In this document: positions 47,993 through 56,055 of the stretch, one piece after another
Position numbering within the stretch: position 1 is the stretch's first letter
Layout of the letters: the number at the start of each line of letters is the position of its first letter
Assembly (NCBI GenBank): GCA_035295165.1
Contig: DATGJN010000007.1
Span: 1-58,318 of the forward strand
Direction: 5' to 3'
Source: a bacterium
GTDB taxonomy: Bacteria > Sysuimicrobiota > Sysuimicrobiia > Sysuimicrobiales > Segetimicrobiaceae
DNA: 58,318 nt
Notes under the pieces: generated by a model
Databases searched by the model: none
What the model was told of the DNA's origin: nothing
What the model saw: the letters and a program-made list of their open reading frames with translations, nothing else
Translations under genes and position numbers: made by a program

Positions 47993-48002
47993 TGCTTGCT
48001 AG

Positions 48003-48282
48003 ATGACGCTTTCAGCCATCGGTGAGCCCCAAACCCGAGCCGACGGGCAAACGGCTCACGGAGGGGATCGGCGATCGGCCAGGGGCTCACGGCCCCTCAG
48101 CGAGCGGGGCTCGCCGAACACAGCCGGATGTCCGCATTCCCTCCGACACTTCGTGGCAACCTCTTGGTTCCGGAACGGCGTCGACCTCGACGAGGTGCGG
48201 CGGTAAGAGCCAGACCACGACCGTGGATCTCCCGAAAACCCACTGGATGGTTGGGGCGATCGAGAGGATGCGCCTCGACTGA
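48003..48282 (+). pseudogene. tyrosine recombinase (integrase) remnant
   Basis: One frame reads CPHSLRHFVATSWFRNGVDLDEVRR and then stops at 48204-48206. This is the box II region of tyrosine integrases, with the His and Arg of HxLR. A second frame continues just downstream with KTHWMVGAIERMRLD, like an integrase C-terminus after the catalytic Tyr segment, which is lost. No intact start or N-terminal domain is present. It is therefore a decayed 3' end of an integrase beside its tRNA-Val target. Confidence 0.75.
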
Positions 48283-48371
48283 GGAGACATGCCCTTGGGC
48301 ATAAATGTCGGATGCTACCGGCCCCGGATCCCGAGCGCGCCCGCGATGGTGGCTCGTGTGGTAGAGGGGGA

Positions 48372-49682
48372 ATGACTATGAAGCCCCGAGCGCTACAGAT
48401 GATGTTGAGCGTCGTGCTCGCTGGTCTCCTCGCATCGGCAAGTCCGGCGTTGGGAGCCAACGCGGATGCTGGGTTGGCGATTGCGGCCTTGCACGTCTTG
48501 GAACAACGGTACGTGAAGGCGGTGCAACCTGTCACGCTGCTGAACGCCGCCGTCGATTCGCTGCGTAAGACCACCCACGAGGACCTACCTGAGATTCCTG
48601 ACGGTACGCTCGGCGCTCAGGCGGAGGGAGTGTTCCGACAGGATTTCGCCAGGGCTGCCCAGGCCGACACCGCGAACGACGGAACGCTCGCGTATCAGAC
48701 AACGCGAGACATGCTGGCATCGCTTCACGATACGCACACCTTCTATCTTGATCCCGCGCAATTCAAAGAATGGCAGGACCGGTATGCCGGCAAACCTGGC
48801 TATGCTGGCGTCGGTTCTCTGTTGGCATCAATCAAGGACAGCGCTGGGACAATCCTGATGGTGTACGTTGCGGCGGTGTTCCCAAGGTCTCCAGCCGCCG
48901 TTGCGGGGCTTCAGCGCTTCGATCAGATCGTTCAAGTCGATGGCACACCGATAGCCCCAGCTGTCACGCCTCTTGATGTGGCCAGGATCGTGCGGGGGCC
49001 GATCGGGTCGACGGTCACGCTCACCCTCAGGCGGAAGGGACGCGATGTCATGCTCACCGCAACGCGGCAAGCGATCGAAGCTCCGGTTCTGTCAACGGAG
49101 ATGGTTCGCCCGGGCATCGCGTACCTGCACCTGTTCCAGTTCACCACGGGCGCCGCGGATCAATTTCGGAGTGCGGTAAGGTCACTTGAAGCGCAGGGCT
49201 CGCTTCGAGGTGTGATCTTGGACCTTCGAGAGAATGGCGGAGGCCTGTATTCGGAGATGCAAGGCGTCGCAGGCACGCTTCTGCCCACCGGCACGCTCCT
49301 TGCGCATGCCGTTAGTCATGAGGGCCCTTCTCAATTTGTTGCGACGGGGACTCCGCTCCTGGCGCAGATTCCGCTTGTTGTGCTGACGGATGGTAATACG
49401 GCTTCGAACGGCGAAGTGCTCAGCCTCGCACTCCATGACGCTCACCGGGCAACGCTGATCGGTGAGAAGACGCAGGGCGCCCTCGGAGAAACCATTACCT
49501 TGCTCCTACCGGCCGGAGGGATGGGTGTGACGATCGCGGAAGTCAACGGACCCCAATACGAGCAGGTTGAGGGCGTTGGGATTGGCCCAGACCAGGTTGT
49601 GTCGCTCACAGTACAAGACGTGTCGGATGGCGCGGACCCCCAACTCGATGCGGCCCTCAAGGCGGTAGGCGCAGGGAACTAG
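48372..49682 (+). CDS. S41 family peptidase (C-terminal processing type)
   Basis: The product has 436 aa. A signal peptide spans residues 1 to about 26 (VVLAGLLASASPALG). A PDZ domain lies at about 145-235 (AAVAGLQRFDQIVQVDGTPI). The tail-specific protease core has GVILDLRENGGGL, LTDGNTASNGEVLSLAL with the candidate nucleophile Ser, and LIGEKTQGALGE with the general-base Lys. It is exported. Codon third positions are less GC-rich than in neighbouring core genes, and it follows the integrase remnant, so it may have been acquired. ATG 48372 has GAGGGGG upstream. Confidence 0.9.
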   Translation: MTMKPRALQMMLSVVLAGLLASASPALGANADAGLAIAALHVLEQRYVKAVQPVTLLNAAVDSLRKTTHEDLPEIPDGTLGAQAEGVFRQDFARAAQADTANDGTLAYQTTRDMLASLHDTHTFYLDPAQFKEWQDRYAGKPGYAGVGSLLASIKDSAGTILMVYVAAVFPRSPAAVAGLQRFDQIVQVDGTPIAPAVTPLDVARIVRGPIGSTVTLTLRRKGRDVMLTATRQAIEAPVLSTEMVRPGIAYLHLFQFTTGAADQFRSAVRSLEAQGSLRGVILDLRENGGGLYSEMQGVAGTLLPTGTLLAHAVSHEGPSQFVATGTPLLAQIPLVVLTDGNTASNGEVLSLALHDAHRATLIGEKTQGALGETITLLLPAGGMGVTIAEVNGPQYEQVEGVGIGPDQVVSLTVQDVSDGADPQLDAALKAVGAGN

Positions 49683-50168
49683 AGTCGAAATTGGGATCTC
49701 TGATGTACGCCCTCGCCGAGTCGGCACGTTGGGGGTGGCAGACAGACAACATCGCCGAGGTGTCCTGGTGAGGGAAGCGTGTAGACCGAACTAGAGGCGA
49801 CCTCGCACCTGGCCCCTTCTGGCCTAAGTTTCCCGGGCCGTGGTCCGGAGGCTATCGGGCTGTGGCCTGATCCATAGCCGTCCCCTCGCACGATCCTGAC
49901 GCGGCGACCGCGCAATGGGCGACGCGCACGGCCCGCAGGTTTGACCCCCCGTGGTTGGGGTTACGGGCGGGCCCCCCACCATCAGGACCGGTCGTCCGCG
50001 ACCGGCCTGCCGACGCGGACGGGTTGGCAGCGTGCGTTCAAGCACGGCGTCCGTTGAGGTCGCGACATCACACTTGAATACATCGACCGCCCGATAGTCC
50101 ATACCGTATGGGGTATGCTACTTTTGCTGTGACGGCGCAATAGCGCCGATCGAAAAGGGGGCGCTGCG
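49683..50168 (+). other. 486-bp non-coding region upstream of the sulfide operon
   Basis: I find no credible gene. A CCGGTCG/CGACCGG hairpin with a TCCG loop is at 49988-50005. The CstR-type operator and the start of the sulfide operon transcript lie at the 3' end. A TATGCT (50114-50119) overlapping the operator is the best -10 candidate. A TTGAAT (50074-50079) is badly spaced for it. Confidence 0.4.
50100..50117. promoter_or_regulatory. CstR/CsoR-type operator of the sulfide operon
   Basis: CATACC-GTATGG-GGTATG is a 6-bp inverted repeat with a 6-bp G-rich spacer, the ATACC...GGTAT form bound by CsoR/CstR repressors. It lies 52 bp upstream of the first gene of the operon that ends with a CstR-like gene, and it overlaps a -10-like TATGCT. 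Confidence 0.75.
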
Positions 50169-50621
50169 ATGAGTAAGACGTTGGATGTCGGGTCGAGAGA
50201 AAGTGCCGGGTCCGTGGCGACCGGCAAGGTCTCGATCATCATGTTCAGCGGCACCGCCGACAAGTTCATTCCGCTTGGGGTGATCGCACAGGCCGCGGCG
50301 GCGATGGAGATGCAGGTCAACATCTTTGTGACGGGGTTCGGGCTGCTCGGATTCACCAAGACGCCCCACGACCTTCCGTTTCCCGCGGAGTTCGCTTCGA
50401 TGGCCCCGGCGCTGGCGCAGGGTATGAAGGCGGCCCGCGTCGAGCCGTGGGATGCGATGCTGCGGCAGGCCAAGGAGTTGGGCGCTGAGGTGTACGTGTG
50501 CTCGATGATGGCCGGGGTCATGGGACTTGACAAGGCCGACTTCAACGACCTCGTCGACGATGTCGTTGGCGCCGCCACGTTCCTCGAGATGGCCGGCGGT
50601 GGCCAAACCCTCTTCATCTGA
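50169..50621 (+). CDS. DsrE/DsrE2-family sulfur-transfer protein
   Basis: The product has 150 aa. DsrE2-like features are VSIIMFSGTADKFIPLGVIAQAAAAMEMQVNIFVTGFG, AEVYVCSMMAGVMGL with conserved Cys111, and VVGAATFLEMA. These proteins bind persulfide sulfur and exchange it with TusA. It is first in the operon DsrE-tusA-sqr-fadL-cstR, just after the putative operator. GGGGGCGC stands in for a ribosome site. Confidence 0.88.
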   Translation: MSKTLDVGSRESAGSVATGKVSIIMFSGTADKFIPLGVIAQAAAAMEMQVNIFVTGFGLLGFTKTPHDLPFPAEFASMAPALAQGMKAARVEPWDAMLRQAKELGAEVYVCSMMAGVMGLDKADFNDLVDDVVGAATFLEMAGGGQTLFI

Positions 50622-50631
50622 GGTGATACCG

Positions 50632-50883
50632 ATGGACGGCACACCGGCAGCCGCACCACGGACGTTTGTCGACTCCCGGGGCTCGTCGTGCCCCGGGCCG
50701 ATTACCGATCTTGCGCTCGCCTACCGGCGCGCGAAGGTCGGAGACGTCATCGAACTCTGGGCGACCGACCCCGGGGTCAAGCCCGACGTCCAGGCGTGGG
50801 CGGCGAAAACGCGCAACCAGATCGTGTCCATTGAGGACCAGGCCGACAAGATCGTGGCCGTCGTCCGCATTCTGAGGCGATGA
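50632..50883 (+). CDS. tusA: TusA-family sulfurtransferase
   Basis: The product has 83 aa. The family signature CPGP (Cys20-Pro23) sits at the end of strand 1 in SRGSSCPGPITDLALAYRRAKVGDVIELWATD. TusA carries sulfane sulfur as a Cys persulfide. In this operon it would accept sulfur produced by the sulfide:quinone oxidoreductase, together with the DsrE-like protein. GAGGTGAT lies upstream of ATG 50632. Confidence 0.92.
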   Translation: MDGTPAAAPRTFVDSRGSSCPGPITDLALAYRRAKVGDVIELWATDPGVKPDVQAWAAKTRNQIVSIEDQADKIVAVVRILRR

Positions 50884-50893
50884 GGCGATACCC

Positions 50894-52093
50894 ATGAAAC
50901 GAGTGGTGATCGTCGGCGGCGGGGCCGGGGCGACGATTCTGGCCAATGCGCTCGACCGGCGGCGATTCGAGGTCCTCGTTATCAGCCAGTCGGCGGTGCA
51001 CATGTTCCAGCCGGCGCTCCTCTACGTCGCGTTCAAGAATGCGAACCCGCGCATCGTGCGCGACGAACGACGGCTGCTGCCGCGCCACGTCCGATTCATC
51101 GAAGAGGCGGTGACGCGCATCGATCTCGCCGCGCACACTGTCGCCACGGGCGCTGGCAGCTGGTACGACTACGATTCGGTCGTCGTCGCAACCGGTGTGC
51201 GGACCGATCCCGGGCAGATCCCTGGGCTCGTCGAGGTCAACCGGCAGTTCGGCGATTACCACAGCAGCATCGCCCACGCCCAGAAGGTGTGGGCGCATCT
51301 CAATGCCTTCCGCGGCGGGACCATCGTGCTGGGACAAAGCTCGCCGCTGATCAAGTGTCCGCCGTCGCCGGTGGAAGGCATGCTCTTGCTCGAGGAGTTG
51401 TTGCACAAGCGTGGCCTGCGAGGCAAGACGCGGCTCGTGTTCATCTCACCGTATCCACGCGCCTACCCGGCGGAGCCGATGAACCAGATCGTCGAACCGA
51501 TCATGCGCAAACGCGGGATCGAGATCTTCCCGTTCTTCGATCTGGACCGGATCGATCCCGCGACCCGCACGATCTCTTCGATCGAAGGCGACGAGATTCA
51601 GTACGACCTGCCGATCTTGATTCCGCCGTTCGTTGGCGCGGATATCGCGTACGAACCGGCCGCCGTTCTCGATGCCAACCGCTTCGTGGTGACCGACAAG
51701 GAGACGCTGCGTATCAAGGGAGTCGACGACGCGTTCGCGATCGGCGACGGCACTAATCTGCCGACCTCCAAGGCCGGCGTGGGCGCTCATCTCGAGGCGA
51801 AAGTCGTGGCGGGCCTGCTGGAGGGCGCGCCGCTGAAGTTCCACGGCCGGACGCACTGTGCAGTTGACCTGGCGTACGGCATGGGCACGTTCGTCATTGG
51901 ATCATACACGGCGCCCGTCCTGAAGTGTCCGCCGAGCCGGCTGAACCACATGATGAAGATGATGATGGCGCACATCTACTGGCTGAGCCTGCGCGGGACA
52001 CTTGAACCGGTGTTCGACTGGTACTTCGCGTACACGGATCCCGACCGGCGGCTGAAAGCCAAGGTCCACGCACCCGGCGAACACGCGGCCTGA
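50894..52093 (+). CDS. sqr: sulfide:quinone oxidoreductase (FAD-dependent)
   Basis: The product has 399 aa. The FAD-binding dinucleotide fold starts VVIVGGGAGATILANAL, with VVVATGVRTDP and IGDGTNLPTSKAGVGAHLEAKVV. Two cysteines of the SQR active site are placed as in known enzymes: Cys155 in SPLIKCPPSPVEGM and Cys345 in APVLKCPPSRLNHM. It oxidises sulfide and passes electrons to quinone at the membrane, probably through the amphipathic C-terminal part (NHMMKMMMAHIYWLSL). NDH-2-type function is less likely because of the cysteine pair and the neighbours. Confidence 0.9.
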   Translation: MKRVVIVGGGAGATILANALDRRRFEVLVISQSAVHMFQPALLYVAFKNANPRIVRDERRLLPRHVRFIEEAVTRIDLAAHTVATGAGSWYDYDSVVVATGVRTDPGQIPGLVEVNRQFGDYHSSIAHAQKVWAHLNAFRGGTIVLGQSSPLIKCPPSPVEGMLLLEELLHKRGLRGKTRLVFISPYPRAYPAEPMNQIVEPIMRKRGIEIFPFFDLDRIDPATRTISSIEGDEIQYDLPILIPPFVGADIAYEPAAVLDANRFVVTDKETLRIKGVDDAFAIGDGTNLPTSKAGVGAHLEAKVVAGLLEGAPLKFHGRTHCAVDLAYGMGTFVIGSYTAPVLKCPPSRLNHMMKMMMAHIYWLSLRGTLEPVFDWYFAYTDPDRRLKAKVHAPGEHAA

Positions 52094-52229
52094 CGGGCGG
52101 AGGCGCGGCCGGAGAGGAGAGGGGAGGGGAGGGCCCTGGGCCGCCGGACCCGCACGATCGGAGAGAATCGCACAGGACCCTGAGCAGAAAGGTCGTCCGG
52201 GCCGCAGTGGATTCATGACAGTCGCGAGG

Positions 52230-52269
52230 CGCGCGACCACGTACCTCATGGGCGGCACGAGGTCGCGCG
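52230..52269 (+). other. 9-bp hairpin between sqr and the fadL-type gene
   Basis: CGCGCGACC (52230-52238) pairs with GGTCGCGCG (52261-52269). It lies in a 232-bp gap and could reduce expression of the downstream genes, or mark a former junction. There is no U-run. Confidence 0.4.
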
Positions 52270-52325
52270 GGCGGCGTAACCGGGTGGAGCGGTGAGCGGA
52301 GGCAAACGCTATTGGGGGGAGTTCC

Positions 52326-53265
52326 ATGAAGACAACGTTCAGTACTGGGCTCTCGTTGGTCGCCCTGGTCATTGCGGTTGCGTTCGCTGCGCCTTCCGCC
52401 TATGCGACGGACGGGTACTTTAGCCACGGATACGGCCTGTACGAGTCGGGGATGGGCGGCGCCGGCGTCGCCTACCCGCAAGACTGCATGGCCGCCGCGA
52501 CCAATCCAGCCGGCATGGTCCTGATCGGCAACTGCACCGTGCTTGGGGTGACTTATTTCCGGCCGCAACGGGGTGCGGTGATCACTGGCAGCGGTGCCGG
52601 TGCGAACGGGACCTACAACGGGAACGGGTACAACGATTTCTATATCCCGCAGTTCGGTTACAACCGCATGCTGAACGACACCATGTCGCTCGGCATTTCG
52701 GTGTACGGTAATGGCGGCATGAATACCTCATACACGACGGCGATTCCGCTGTTCGGGACGACGCCGGCGGGCGTGGATCTCGAGCAGCTCATCATCGCGC
52801 CGACATTCGCGTGGAAGATCAACCCGTCAAACGCGATCGGTGTGTCGGTGAACTTTGCGTATCAGATGTTCTCAGCGTACGGCCTGCAGAATTTTGACAA
52901 CGCCGCGATCTCGACGGCCGCCGGGCACGTGACGAACAACGGCCAGGACACCGCCACCGGCTGGGGTGTGCGCATCGGCTGGACCGGCCAGGTCAGTCCC
53001 ACCGTGACCCTCGGGGCGACGTACCAGACCGTGACGTCGATGAGCAAGTGTGCTCTTTAACATTCTGGCCCCGGGCGTGGTCACGGACCACGTGACCGTG
53101 GGCCTGACGTGGACGCCGTCGCCGAATCAGGAACTGACGGTAGCCTACATGCACGCGTTTGCGAACTCGGTCACTGGCCCGATCCCCGCCGCGTTCGGCG
53201 GCGGCACCGCGAACATCAACCTGAGCGAGGACTCGCTCGGCGTCGCGTACCGTTGGAGGTTTTGA
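52326..53265 (+). pseudogene. FadL/OmpP1-type outer membrane protein, broken by internal deletion
   Basis: Residues 1 to about 241 (52326-53047) read as a signal peptide (VIAVAFAAPSAYA), then GYFSHGYGLYESGMGGAGVAYPQD and AATNPAGM, and continue to YQTVTSMSK. The frame then ends CAL-stop at 53060. A second frame from 53050 gives LFNILAPGVVTDHVTVGLTW and a normal C-terminus NINLSEDSLGVAYRWRF ending at 53265. Intact homologues have roughly 110-120 more residues between TSMSK and FNILAPGV. So an internal deletion with a frame change has occurred near 53047. The C-terminal Phe fits outer-membrane insertion. It lies between sqr and the repressor gene. Confidence 0.82.
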
Positions 53266-53267
53266 GC

Positions 53268-53588
53268 ATGGGACGCTTGTCGACAACTGAGAAGGCGAAC
53301 ACGCTGGTTCAAGTGGACGACGAGGTGCGGTTAGAGCACGAGGCTCTGGTGGCGCGGCTCCGCCGAGTGGAAGGACAGATCCGCGGGCTGCAGCGCCTGC
53401 TGGAGGAGGGGGCCTCGTGCGAGGTCGTGGCCCAGCAGCTTTTTGCGGCGAAGGCGGCACTGGAAAAGATCGGCGTCCGCCTGTTCGTGGCGAACATGCG
53501 GAGCTGTCTGTCCCGGGACCTCGCTGGAGATACCAACGCTCGGCGTGCGTTGGACCGGATTACGGAGGTGTTTGCGCGGCTCGCGTGA
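53268..53588 (+). CDS. cstR: CsoR/CstR-family persulfide-sensing repressor
   Basis: The product has 106 aa. The all-helical family core is ARLRRVEGQIRGLQRLLEEGASCEVVAQQLFAAKAAL. Cys51 and Cys80 are 29 residues apart, as are Cys31 and Cys60 of CstR. The copper-liganding His of CsoR (four residues before the second Cys) is Asn76 here (NMRSC), which favours persulfide sensing over Cu(I). With sqr, TusA and DsrE genes upstream and an ATACC...GGTAT operator ahead of the operon, auto-regulation is very likely. Confidence 0.88.
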   Translation: MGRLSTTEKANTLVQVDDEVRLEHEALVARLRRVEGQIRGLQRLLEEGASCEVVAQQLFAAKAALEKIGVRLFVANMRSCLSRDLAGDTNARRALDRITEVFARLA

Positions 53589-53721
53589 CGTGACGATTCC
53601 GCCCACCAATCAAGCGTGGGCGCGGTCGCTGGGCATTGGGGGCGCCGGCTTTGTTCGGGTCGCCCGGATCGCGGAGAAAGGACGCGCAGGGGTGGCCGTC
53701 ACGGTTGCATCCTTGCCTGCT

Positions 53722-54276
53722 CTATCCGATCGCTTCGGCTTTGTGACCCTCAACCAGTTTCAGAATCGTCGCCCAGTTCCTCGTGGTGATATCCTTGCCG
53801 AATTGCTTCTCTAGAAATGTCATAAGATCGGGGGTGCCGGTGTCGGGGGAAAGGGTGACAGCGCTGCATATCTCTCGATCTGAAACAGAGACAATGGCAA
53901 AGTCTTTGTCGGGCGATCTATACGGGGTCTTGAGCGCGGTCTGTGGTTTGTGGGCCAGAAACGTTACATAGAGTTTGGTCTTGGGTGTGATGCGTACCTG
54001 TCTGAACGGCCTTCTGTGAACGAGCGCCTGCAGGTCTCCGATCGTGCGAACGATCACGCCAGCGTCAAAGCCAAACCGATTCCTCAGTGTTTGCTCGATT
54101 CGCGTTCGTAACGCTGTGGCGCTTTGCCCCCGGGTCGCAAAGACCACGTTGCCGCTCGCGATGTATGTTGTGACATCCGCAAATCCAAGCGATTTGAATG
54201 CTTGCTGCAAGTCATCCATCTTGACCCGACGCCCACCGACGTTAATGCCCCTCAGAAAGGCTGCGTGCTCAGCCAT
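53722..54276 (-). CDS. DUF1697 family protein
   Basis: The product has 184 aa. The start AFLRGINVGGRRVKMDDLQQAFKSLGFADVTTYIASGNVVF is the diagnostic DUF1697 opening, and TRNWATILKLVE the closing. The function is unknown. Codon use is visibly less GC-rich than in core genes. It overlaps the YdeI gene by 8 bp, forming a two-gene unit typical of recently acquired accessory genes. Confidence 0.9.
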   Translation of the reverse strand: MAEHAAFLRGINVGGRRVKMDDLQQAFKSLGFADVTTYIASGNVVFATRGQSATALRTRIEQTLRNRFGFDAGVIVRTIGDLQALVHRRPFRQVRITPKTKLYVTFLAHKPQTALKTPYRSPDKDFAIVSVSDREICSAVTLSPDTGTPDLMTFLEKQFGKDITTRNWATILKLVEGHKAEAIG

Positions 54277-54850
54277 GAAACGTCTGTCCCTGGGCCAGCA
54301 TCGCCAGGATTCTGGTGAGACGCTTCTGCCGCGTTCCCGGCGTCTTCGCGGTCTGCAACCTCCAGGCAATGGCATACACATTGGTTCTGTTCAGCGTGGT
54401 GTAGAAGGCGTGGGCTCTCGTGTTCTCGGCGAGTCCTCGACGCAAATCATCGGGCACTCTCATCTTGCTGGCCGGGTCGTACGCGGCGTTCCAGCGACCG
54501 TCCTGTTTGGCTGCCTCGATCTCTTTGACCCCTGCTGCACGCATTTTTCCGGCTTTAGCAAGGCGCTCGGCGCGCTCTCTGTTTCTCTTTGACCAAACAC
54601 TCTTAGGTCGTCGGGGAGTAAACTTGCGCAGCCAGGACCTCTCGTCGTACCTCTTGAGCTGTCCGTCTATCCACCCGCAGCAGAGCGCCTCGTCCAGGGC
54701 CTCATCGTAAGAGACCGTAGAGACCGCAGAGTCTCTTTTGAACAACCGGAGCCAAATGCCGTTCGACCTGGCGTGGTTCTTGGCAAGCCACTGTTTCCAC
54801 TCCTTGGCAGATGAAAAGGCGACGATGCCCAACTCTGTTTCGGCGCTCAT
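54269..54850 (-). CDS. YdeI/OmdA-family protein
   Basis: The product has 193 aa. Signatures are FSSAKEWKQWLAKNHARSNGIWLRLFK, YDEALDEALCCGWIDGQLKRYDERSWLRKFTPRRPKSVWSKRN and WNAAYDPASKMRVPDDL. YdeI-type proteins are linked to cell-envelope stress or polymyxin tolerance in some species, but their biochemistry is unclear. Lower GC than core genes. It is the upstream member of the pair with DUF1697. Confidence 0.88.
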   Translation of the reverse strand: MSAETELGIVAFSSAKEWKQWLAKNHARSNGIWLRLFKRDSAVSTVSYDEALDEALCCGWIDGQLKRYDERSWLRKFTPRRPKSVWSKRNRERAERLAKAGKMRAAGVKEIEAAKQDGRWNAAYDPASKMRVPDDLRRGLAENTRAHAFYTTLNRTNVYAIAWRLQTAKTPGTRQKRLTRILAMLAQGQTFHG

Positions 54851-55063
54851 CTCAGCCTCTCTGTGGGTTCGGTTGCGAGATCCCATTCTACCGCCAAGGA
54901 ATGTGGCTTCTTATGCTCGCGCCCTCAGTGGCGGTCCCCTAGGCTATCGCACCGCCTGCTGAGTTCAAATCTGAGTTCGCATCCGAACGTATCGATCGGC
55001 CACCGCCTCCGCGCGGCGGACGAAAAGTGGTCGGTCATGAGATCAGGAGGCAGACGTAACATG

Positions 55064-55641
55064 CTACTGGTATCTTGCCCCAGACGCCGCTGCTCCCATC
55101 GCTGCGACGGGTTGGTAGCGCAGCGCGACGACTCCGGTCGGCAAGCTCGTCGCGCCAATCAGTCGCATCCGCATGTTTTCGCCCTCCCGAAAGAGGAGCC
55201 TACCGCGGCCCACGAAGAGGGGAAAGATGAAAGCCGCACCTCATCGAGCAAGCCGTGTTGCAGCAGAGTCTGTGCAAGGAGGCCATGGCCGTATATGGCA
55301 AGATCTGTGCCAGCTTCCCGTTTAAGCTTGCTCACCAAGTCCACGACGTCGACGTCGCCTTTCATGATGGTCGAGTTGTTCCAAGCGGCCTCGTGCAAGG
55401 TCGACGAGAAGACGTACTTGCGGACGCTGTTGATTCGATCGGCAAAATCGCCGGGTTGGCCGGCCCAATCCCTCGCCAGCATTTCATATGTCCGTCTTCC
55501 CAGCAACATGCCGTCGCTCTCCAAAAGCCGCTCAAACGCGCCCTTCTGAAACCCATCGTCGAGGTAGCGTCCGACCCATCCCGCTGGGTCTTCAATGACG
55601 CCGTCGAGCGTCACCAAGGTGGATTCGATGATCTTCCGCAT
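55064..55641 (-). pseudogene. RibD/dihydrofolate-reductase-like protein, frameshifted
   Basis: The first 140 or so codons (from ATG 55641) read MRKIIESTLVTLDGVIEDPAGW, GMLLGRRTYEMLA, KYVFSSTL and DLAIYGHGLLAQTLLQHGLLDEVRL, the RibD C-terminal-like family. The frame then ends prematurely at 55159. Shifting frame near 55215 restores FPLFVGRGRLLFREGEN, LIGATSLPTGVVALRYQ and a stop at 55064-55066, which is the expected C-terminus. A single base is missing. It is a recent pseudogene or a sequencing error. Confidence 0.78.
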
Positions 55642-56055
55642 GGGTATCCCTCCTTTCGTTGGGCTCTGCCGGTCATCCTAGCGATGAGCTCAGCGCCTGC
55701 GCTTGAGGAAGCGCGATGCTCCACCTCAGCAGACGGACTGGGCGAGGAATGCTGGATGGCTAAGACGCCGGCCCATGCACGGTCCTCCTCTCTTCCTCGT
55801 TTCGTGGATAGTCGAACGGGCCGGTGCGAGATCGACATAGCCGCAAGCCCGAGAAGGGATGGCTCGGGGCAGGATGTCCTGCGAATCCCCGACTCCATCG
55901 CTCACCCCGGTGGTCGAGGATCCTGGTCAGTCGGACGTCGAGGGTGAGATCCGGAGCGCGACTGAGGACGGGTCTGCCATGATCGAGCGAGGCGCTGCCC
56001 GCCAGACCCCCATACGGTTAGCAGGACTTACGAGGATTCTGTGGAAAATGACTGA
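55642..56055. other. 414-bp intergenic region, no gene seen
   Basis: The region lies between two divergent genes. It should contain promoters for the reductase-like gene and the GntR operon, but no clear hexamer pair stands out. Short open frames here have no protein-like composition. Confidence 0.35.

Follow-up and report, generated by a model that had tools for sequence, protein, structure and literature searches.

A predicted CstR-type sulfide-oxidation operon with a decayed fadL, probably a passenger, in a draft bacterial genome

Does a compact set of sulfur genes in this genome carry its own persulfide sensor, and is an outer-membrane porin part of the set? The window analyzed here is contig C7, a stretch of 58,318 bp from a draft genome (MAG) of 4.79 Mb that is 98% complete. 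The original prediction read five genes in line near its end, for a DsrE2-like protein, TusA, sulfide:quinone oxidoreductase (SQR), a FadL-type porin and a CstR-type repressor, behind an ATACC...GGTAT operator. Reading frames and Pfam profiles identify four intact, open and co-oriented genes on the + strand, encoding the DsrE-like protein, TusA, SQR and a CsoR-family repressor. The proposed gene order holds for these four, but not for fadL, whose frame is broken, and judged from its reading frames the unit is therefore an operon of four working genes with a porin remnant rather than one of five genes.

Features of the operon region, with coordinates in the window and strand:
50101..50116, no strand: operator ATACCGTATGGGGTAT, an exact ATACC-N6-GGTAT palindrome 68 bp before dsrE.
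50169..50621, + strand: DsrE/DsrE2-like sulfur carrier, 150 aa, with a single Cys (VYVCSMM); Pfam DrsE_2 2.6e-17, DsrE 8.8e-9.
50632..50883, + strand: TusA-like sulfurtransferase, 83 aa, with a Cys-Pro-Gly-Pro motif read from the sequence; Pfam TusA 1.6e-16.
50894..52093, + strand: SQR, 399 aa; Pfam Pyr_redox_2 and PDB matches to SQOR, the best at 2.5e-25.
52170..52279, + strand: 3' end of a citrate synthase gene, decayed and frameshifted; frameshift-aware score 90, and the same gene precedes fadL in a relative (G004).
52326..53265, + strand: fadL/ompP1 pseudogene; Pfam Toluene_X 2.2e-14 and DNA alignment with the intact G004 copy.
53268..53588, + strand: CsoR-family repressor, 106 aa, Cys51-Asn76-Cys80 (alignment numbering); Pfam Trns_repr_metal (PF02583) 4.7e-19.

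A search of solved structures returned human SQOR as the best match to the window's SQR, and residues Cys155 and Cys322 align with the catalytic cysteine pair of the human enzyme. Both cysteines are invariant in an alignment of 8 homologs, and the protein combines them with the FAD/pyridine nucleotide-disulfide fold (Pyr_redox_2), as expected of the family. A further SQR cysteine, Cys345 in a Lys-Cys-Pro-Pro motif, is shared by none of seven aligned relatives. The DsrE-like protein scores only 31 bits against a cut-off of 210 for the NCBIfam DsrE2 equivalog, and we therefore name it only DsrE/DsrE2-like. No rhodanese, persulfide dioxygenase or sulfite exporter adjoins the operon genes, in contrast to the cst operon of staphylococci, which counts against the explanation that we favor.

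We then considered what the repressor is likely to sense. The protein clearly belongs to the CsoR/DUF156 family, and its two cysteines are 29 residues apart, with Asn between them in place of the Cu(I)-ligand His of CsoR. This Cys-Asn-Cys pattern and its spacing match chain 7mq1 of Streptococcus pneumoniae CstR in an alignment, and the pattern is common to all three operon repressors of the family, those of the window genome, G007 and G009. By overall sequence, the best solved match is the copper CsoR 4m1p and not CstR, and in the tree its grouping with 7mq1 is weak (85/69, with a long branch). Because of these two results, the label "CstR-type" rests on the sensor residues and on genomic context. 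A plasmid search returned distant CsoRs only.

The match to 4m1p, together with a weak match to NCBIfam RicR, would also suit a copper-sensing CsoR, in which case the operon would be a copper or general thiol-stress unit. We consider this very unlikely and rejected it on two grounds: all three operon repressors have Asn where CsoR has its copper-ligand His, and the window's genome encodes a second CsoR-family member, which has Cys-His-Cys residues, adjoins the copper ATPase gene copA and serves as a built-in control. The genes that would be under control are, moreover, sulfur genes.

The operator predicted at the front of the operon is present as an exact palindrome. The sequence ATACCGTATGGGGTAT is the sole exact ATACC-N6-GGTAT match in 58 kb, a length in which about 5 matches with up to two mismatches are expected by chance. 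For the relaxed pattern ATACY-N6-RGTAT, the 4.79-Mb genome contains only two exact sites, and for the reversed control pattern none. The second site, on contig C66, is probably a chance occurrence, because the gene that follows it encodes an ABC substrate-binding protein and no sulfur gene is present there. The putative operator of the window covers the presumed -10 region and promoter spacer of dsrE.

Comparison of related operons links the operator to the repressor. The dsrE-tusA-sqr trio occurs in six genomes of the family, with SQR proteins 75-82% identical to that of the window. In three of the six (the window genome, G007 and G009), cstR follows sqr and the palindrome lies 67-69 bp upstream of dsrE; the other three (G004, G005 and G006) have neither, although sqr lies at a contig end in G004, so that the absence of cstR there rests on a whole-genome search. 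When the six promoters are aligned, their frame is conserved, but the palindrome is found only where cstR is present and is scrambled in the relatives that lack it. The G007 operator is not identical to that of the window and carries one mismatch. A genome of another family, G012, has a divergent CsoR-like gene together with an operator site in front of dsrE. Counting all loci with a recognisable dsrE, we found the operator within 300 bp of this gene at 4/4 loci with a repressor versus 0/32 without one, the latter being distinct loci with a full upstream region; because the relatives are not independent, this contrast overstates the statistics. One further genome, G015, has a site with two mismatches and a Cys-Gly-Cys repressor elsewhere in the genome. 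Together, the Cys-Asn-Cys pattern and the co-occurrence of operator and repressor support, at the level of sequence, the claim of a CstR-type repressor.

The same kind of site extends beyond the family. The His-less CsoRs of the order form one well-supported group (97/96) in a tree that separates the residue classes. Allowing up to one mismatch, ATACY-N6-RGTAT is present within about 1.5 kb at 12 of 16 loci of the sister clade with Cys-Gly/Ser-Cys residues and at none of the 13 Cys-His-Cys CsoR loci of the order; the site accompanies His-less CsoRs only. Some of the sister-clade sites precede dsrE-type (in some cases directly), OsmC or thioredoxin-like genes, as named by eye from the translations. 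The CsoRs of this clade (L048 and L141-L154), which have Cys-Gly-Cys or Cys-Ser-Cys residues, have dsrE, OsmC and double-thioredoxin genes as neighbors and an operator of the kind found in the window. It is possible, at somewhat less than even odds, that His-less dithiol CsoRs (Cys-Asn-Cys and Cys-Gly/Ser-Cys) and a shared ATACY-N6-RGTAT operator govern variable sulfur-carrier genes across the order, with operator and repressor acquired or lost as a pair; the effector of the Cys-Gly-Cys branch may differ from that of CstR.

The porin gene has a different history. A stop at 53058 ends the fadL frame after the N-terminal part (52326-53060, 244 aa), and the C-terminal remainder (53050-53265) continues in a different frame. 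Aligned at the DNA level with the intact 428-aa copy of G004, a genome of the same family, the window's fadL lacks 347 bp at about 53049, a length that is not a multiple of three and shifts the frame, with a 2-bp GT overlap at the breakpoint. The complete open reading frame of a functional FadL/OmpP1 protein is thus lacking in this assembly. FadL is also rare in the order, where only 2 of 43 genomes have it, and it is absent from every related dsrE-tusA-sqr locus. The intact G004 gene is flanked by genes for citrate synthase and for a branched-chain-type ABC substrate-binding protein, and not by sulfur genes.

A trace of this G004 neighborhood is found in the window, where the 232 bp before fadL hold a frameshifted remnant of a G004-type citrate synthase C-terminus. 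Its frameshift-aware score of 90 compares with a mean of 26 (sd 5, maximum 54) for 246 random window segments. A direct comparison at the DNA level between the sqr-fadL gap and the end of the G004 citrate synthase gene was unconvincing, as 6 of 576 control segments scored as high. The window genome's own citrate synthase match is only 36% identical to that of G004. The distance between sqr and cstR is 33 bp in G007 and about 120 bp in G009, compared with 1,174 bp in the window. Based on the deletion, the rarity of fadL, the shared citrate synthase neighbor and the short gaps in G007 and G009, the most likely history is that a gltA-fadL fragment was inserted between sqr and cstR and then decayed.

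Two other accounts of fadL were considered. It could be a functional fifth gene, in which case uptake of a hydrophobic sulfur compound across the outer membrane would be tied to sulfide oxidation within one unit. Its orientation, a stop codon only 2 bp before the cstR start, and the outer membrane of the host would all be compatible with such a role, but the deletion and frameshift, the lack of fadL in any other dsrE-tusA-sqr locus, the non-sulfur neighbors of the intact G004 gene and the decayed citrate synthase tail upstream make it extremely improbable. Alternatively, the deletion could be an artefact of assembly, and the living cell would then have an intact, wedged fadL that is read through from the operon and has no sulfur role. 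In favor of this, the window comes from a MAG, the break shows the GT overlap, and the N-terminal part of fadL matches the intact copy at 83% identity, which also means that the decay, if real, is recent. The neighboring citrate synthase remnant is plainly decayed, however, and the rest of the operon is undisrupted, and we regard an artefact as unlikely.

We therefore rejected the porin as part of the operon, and the outer-membrane uptake that had been tied to sulfur use falls with it, since fadL is a pseudogene in this assembly. The original prediction had proposed a search for the same gene order with an intact FadL elsewhere; none of 80 sqr loci fetched from other genomes has fadL, and a search of a literature library found no paper linking FadL to sulfide:quinone oxidoreductase operons. 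The two-membrane host that had been deduced from the porin is correct on other grounds, as the genome encodes the outer membrane assembly protein BamA/Omp85 and therefore has an outer membrane, but this does not follow from fadL.

The surroundings of the operon are also distinctive. Across the operon and its flanks (48000-56000), G+C drops from about 0.70 to 0.60-0.64. The operon is absent from the two congeners, and its flanking genes lack synteny in relatives. For these reasons, the region may be an island. Among named genomes, the dsrE-tusA-sqr trio, with SQR proteins of 45-68% identity, is found in drafts labelled Acidobacteria, Actinomycetes, Elusimicrobia, Myxococcales, Dormiibacterota and even Micrarchaeota (L058-L075), a spread that reflects either wide transfer or misbinned contigs.

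Building on the observed gene content, conserved cysteines, operator conservation with its link to the repressor, and decay and origin of the porin, we propose a repressible dsrE-tusA-sqr-cstR operon that is derepressed by sulfide or persulfide and in which fadL is a decayed passenger. We give this reading a probability of roughly 0.85. Repression, persulfide sensing and the flow of electrons and sulfur are modeled on CstR of Staphylococcus aureus (PMC5480029) and YrkD of Bacillus licheniformis (PMC9918477). When reactive sulfur is absent, the reduced CstR-type repressor would bind ATACC-N6-GGTAT, covering the -10 region and the promoter spacer, and keep the operon off. As sulfide or persulfide rises, di- or polysulfide bridges would form between Cys51 and Cys80, and the repressor would leave the DNA. 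SQR would then oxidize sulfide at Cys155/Cys322 and reduce the quinone pool. The sulfane sulfur would pass by way of TusA and the DsrE-like protein to an acceptor that is presumably encoded outside the operon. The fadL remnant between sqr and cstR would have arrived with the tail of the citrate synthase gene and would take no part. The sensor residues, the SQR cysteines, the Cys-Pro-x-Pro motif of TusA and the co-occurrence of operator and repressor thus bear out, as far as sequence can, the prediction of an operon for sulfide oxidation and persulfide transfer that has a CstR-type sensor and an operator of its own. These results add a diderm lineage that has received little study to those with predicted or known CstR-type control of sulfide oxidation, and they dispose of an attractive but mistaken link between a porin and sulfur uptake. 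They also provide a natural comparison, in which the same operon occurs with and without its repressor and the operator vanishes together with it.

CstR-type control outside the staphylococci has already been published, for B. licheniformis YrkD (PMC9918477) and Thermus thermophilus TTHA1953 (PMC10318464). In S. aureus, CstR is the CsoR-family dithiol repressor (Cys31/Cys60) of the cst operon (PMC5480029), and the window resembles this system in its type of repressor, in the cysteine spacing of 29 and in the association with sqr and DsrE/TusA sulfurtransferase activities. The staphylococcal operon, however, has CstA, in which rhodanese, TusA and DsrE are fused, together with a second enzyme, CstB (PMC5480029), whereas the window has separate small dsrE and tusA genes and none of the others. 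YrkD is a CstR homolog that is released by sulfane sulfur and controls dsrE, tusA, sqr and more (PMC9918477). The window shares this combination of a CstR-type repressor with dsrE, tusA and sqr, but it has four genes, compared with 11 in the yrkD cluster, which includes persulfide dioxygenases and a two-component system (PMC9918477). TTHA1953 is a two-cysteine CsoR-like repressor of sulfur oxidation in a diderm, and its tested consensus site also holds ATACC...GGTAT, although the arrangement TAC-N2-TAC-N4-GTA-N2-GTA differs in spacing from the window operator (PMC10318464). TTHA1953 acts on sox genes that lie far away from its own gene, and it was not released by NaHS (PMC10318464). Against this background, the striking claim of a porin does not hold, and what is new is a further member of the published CstR-type control, with a compact gene set.
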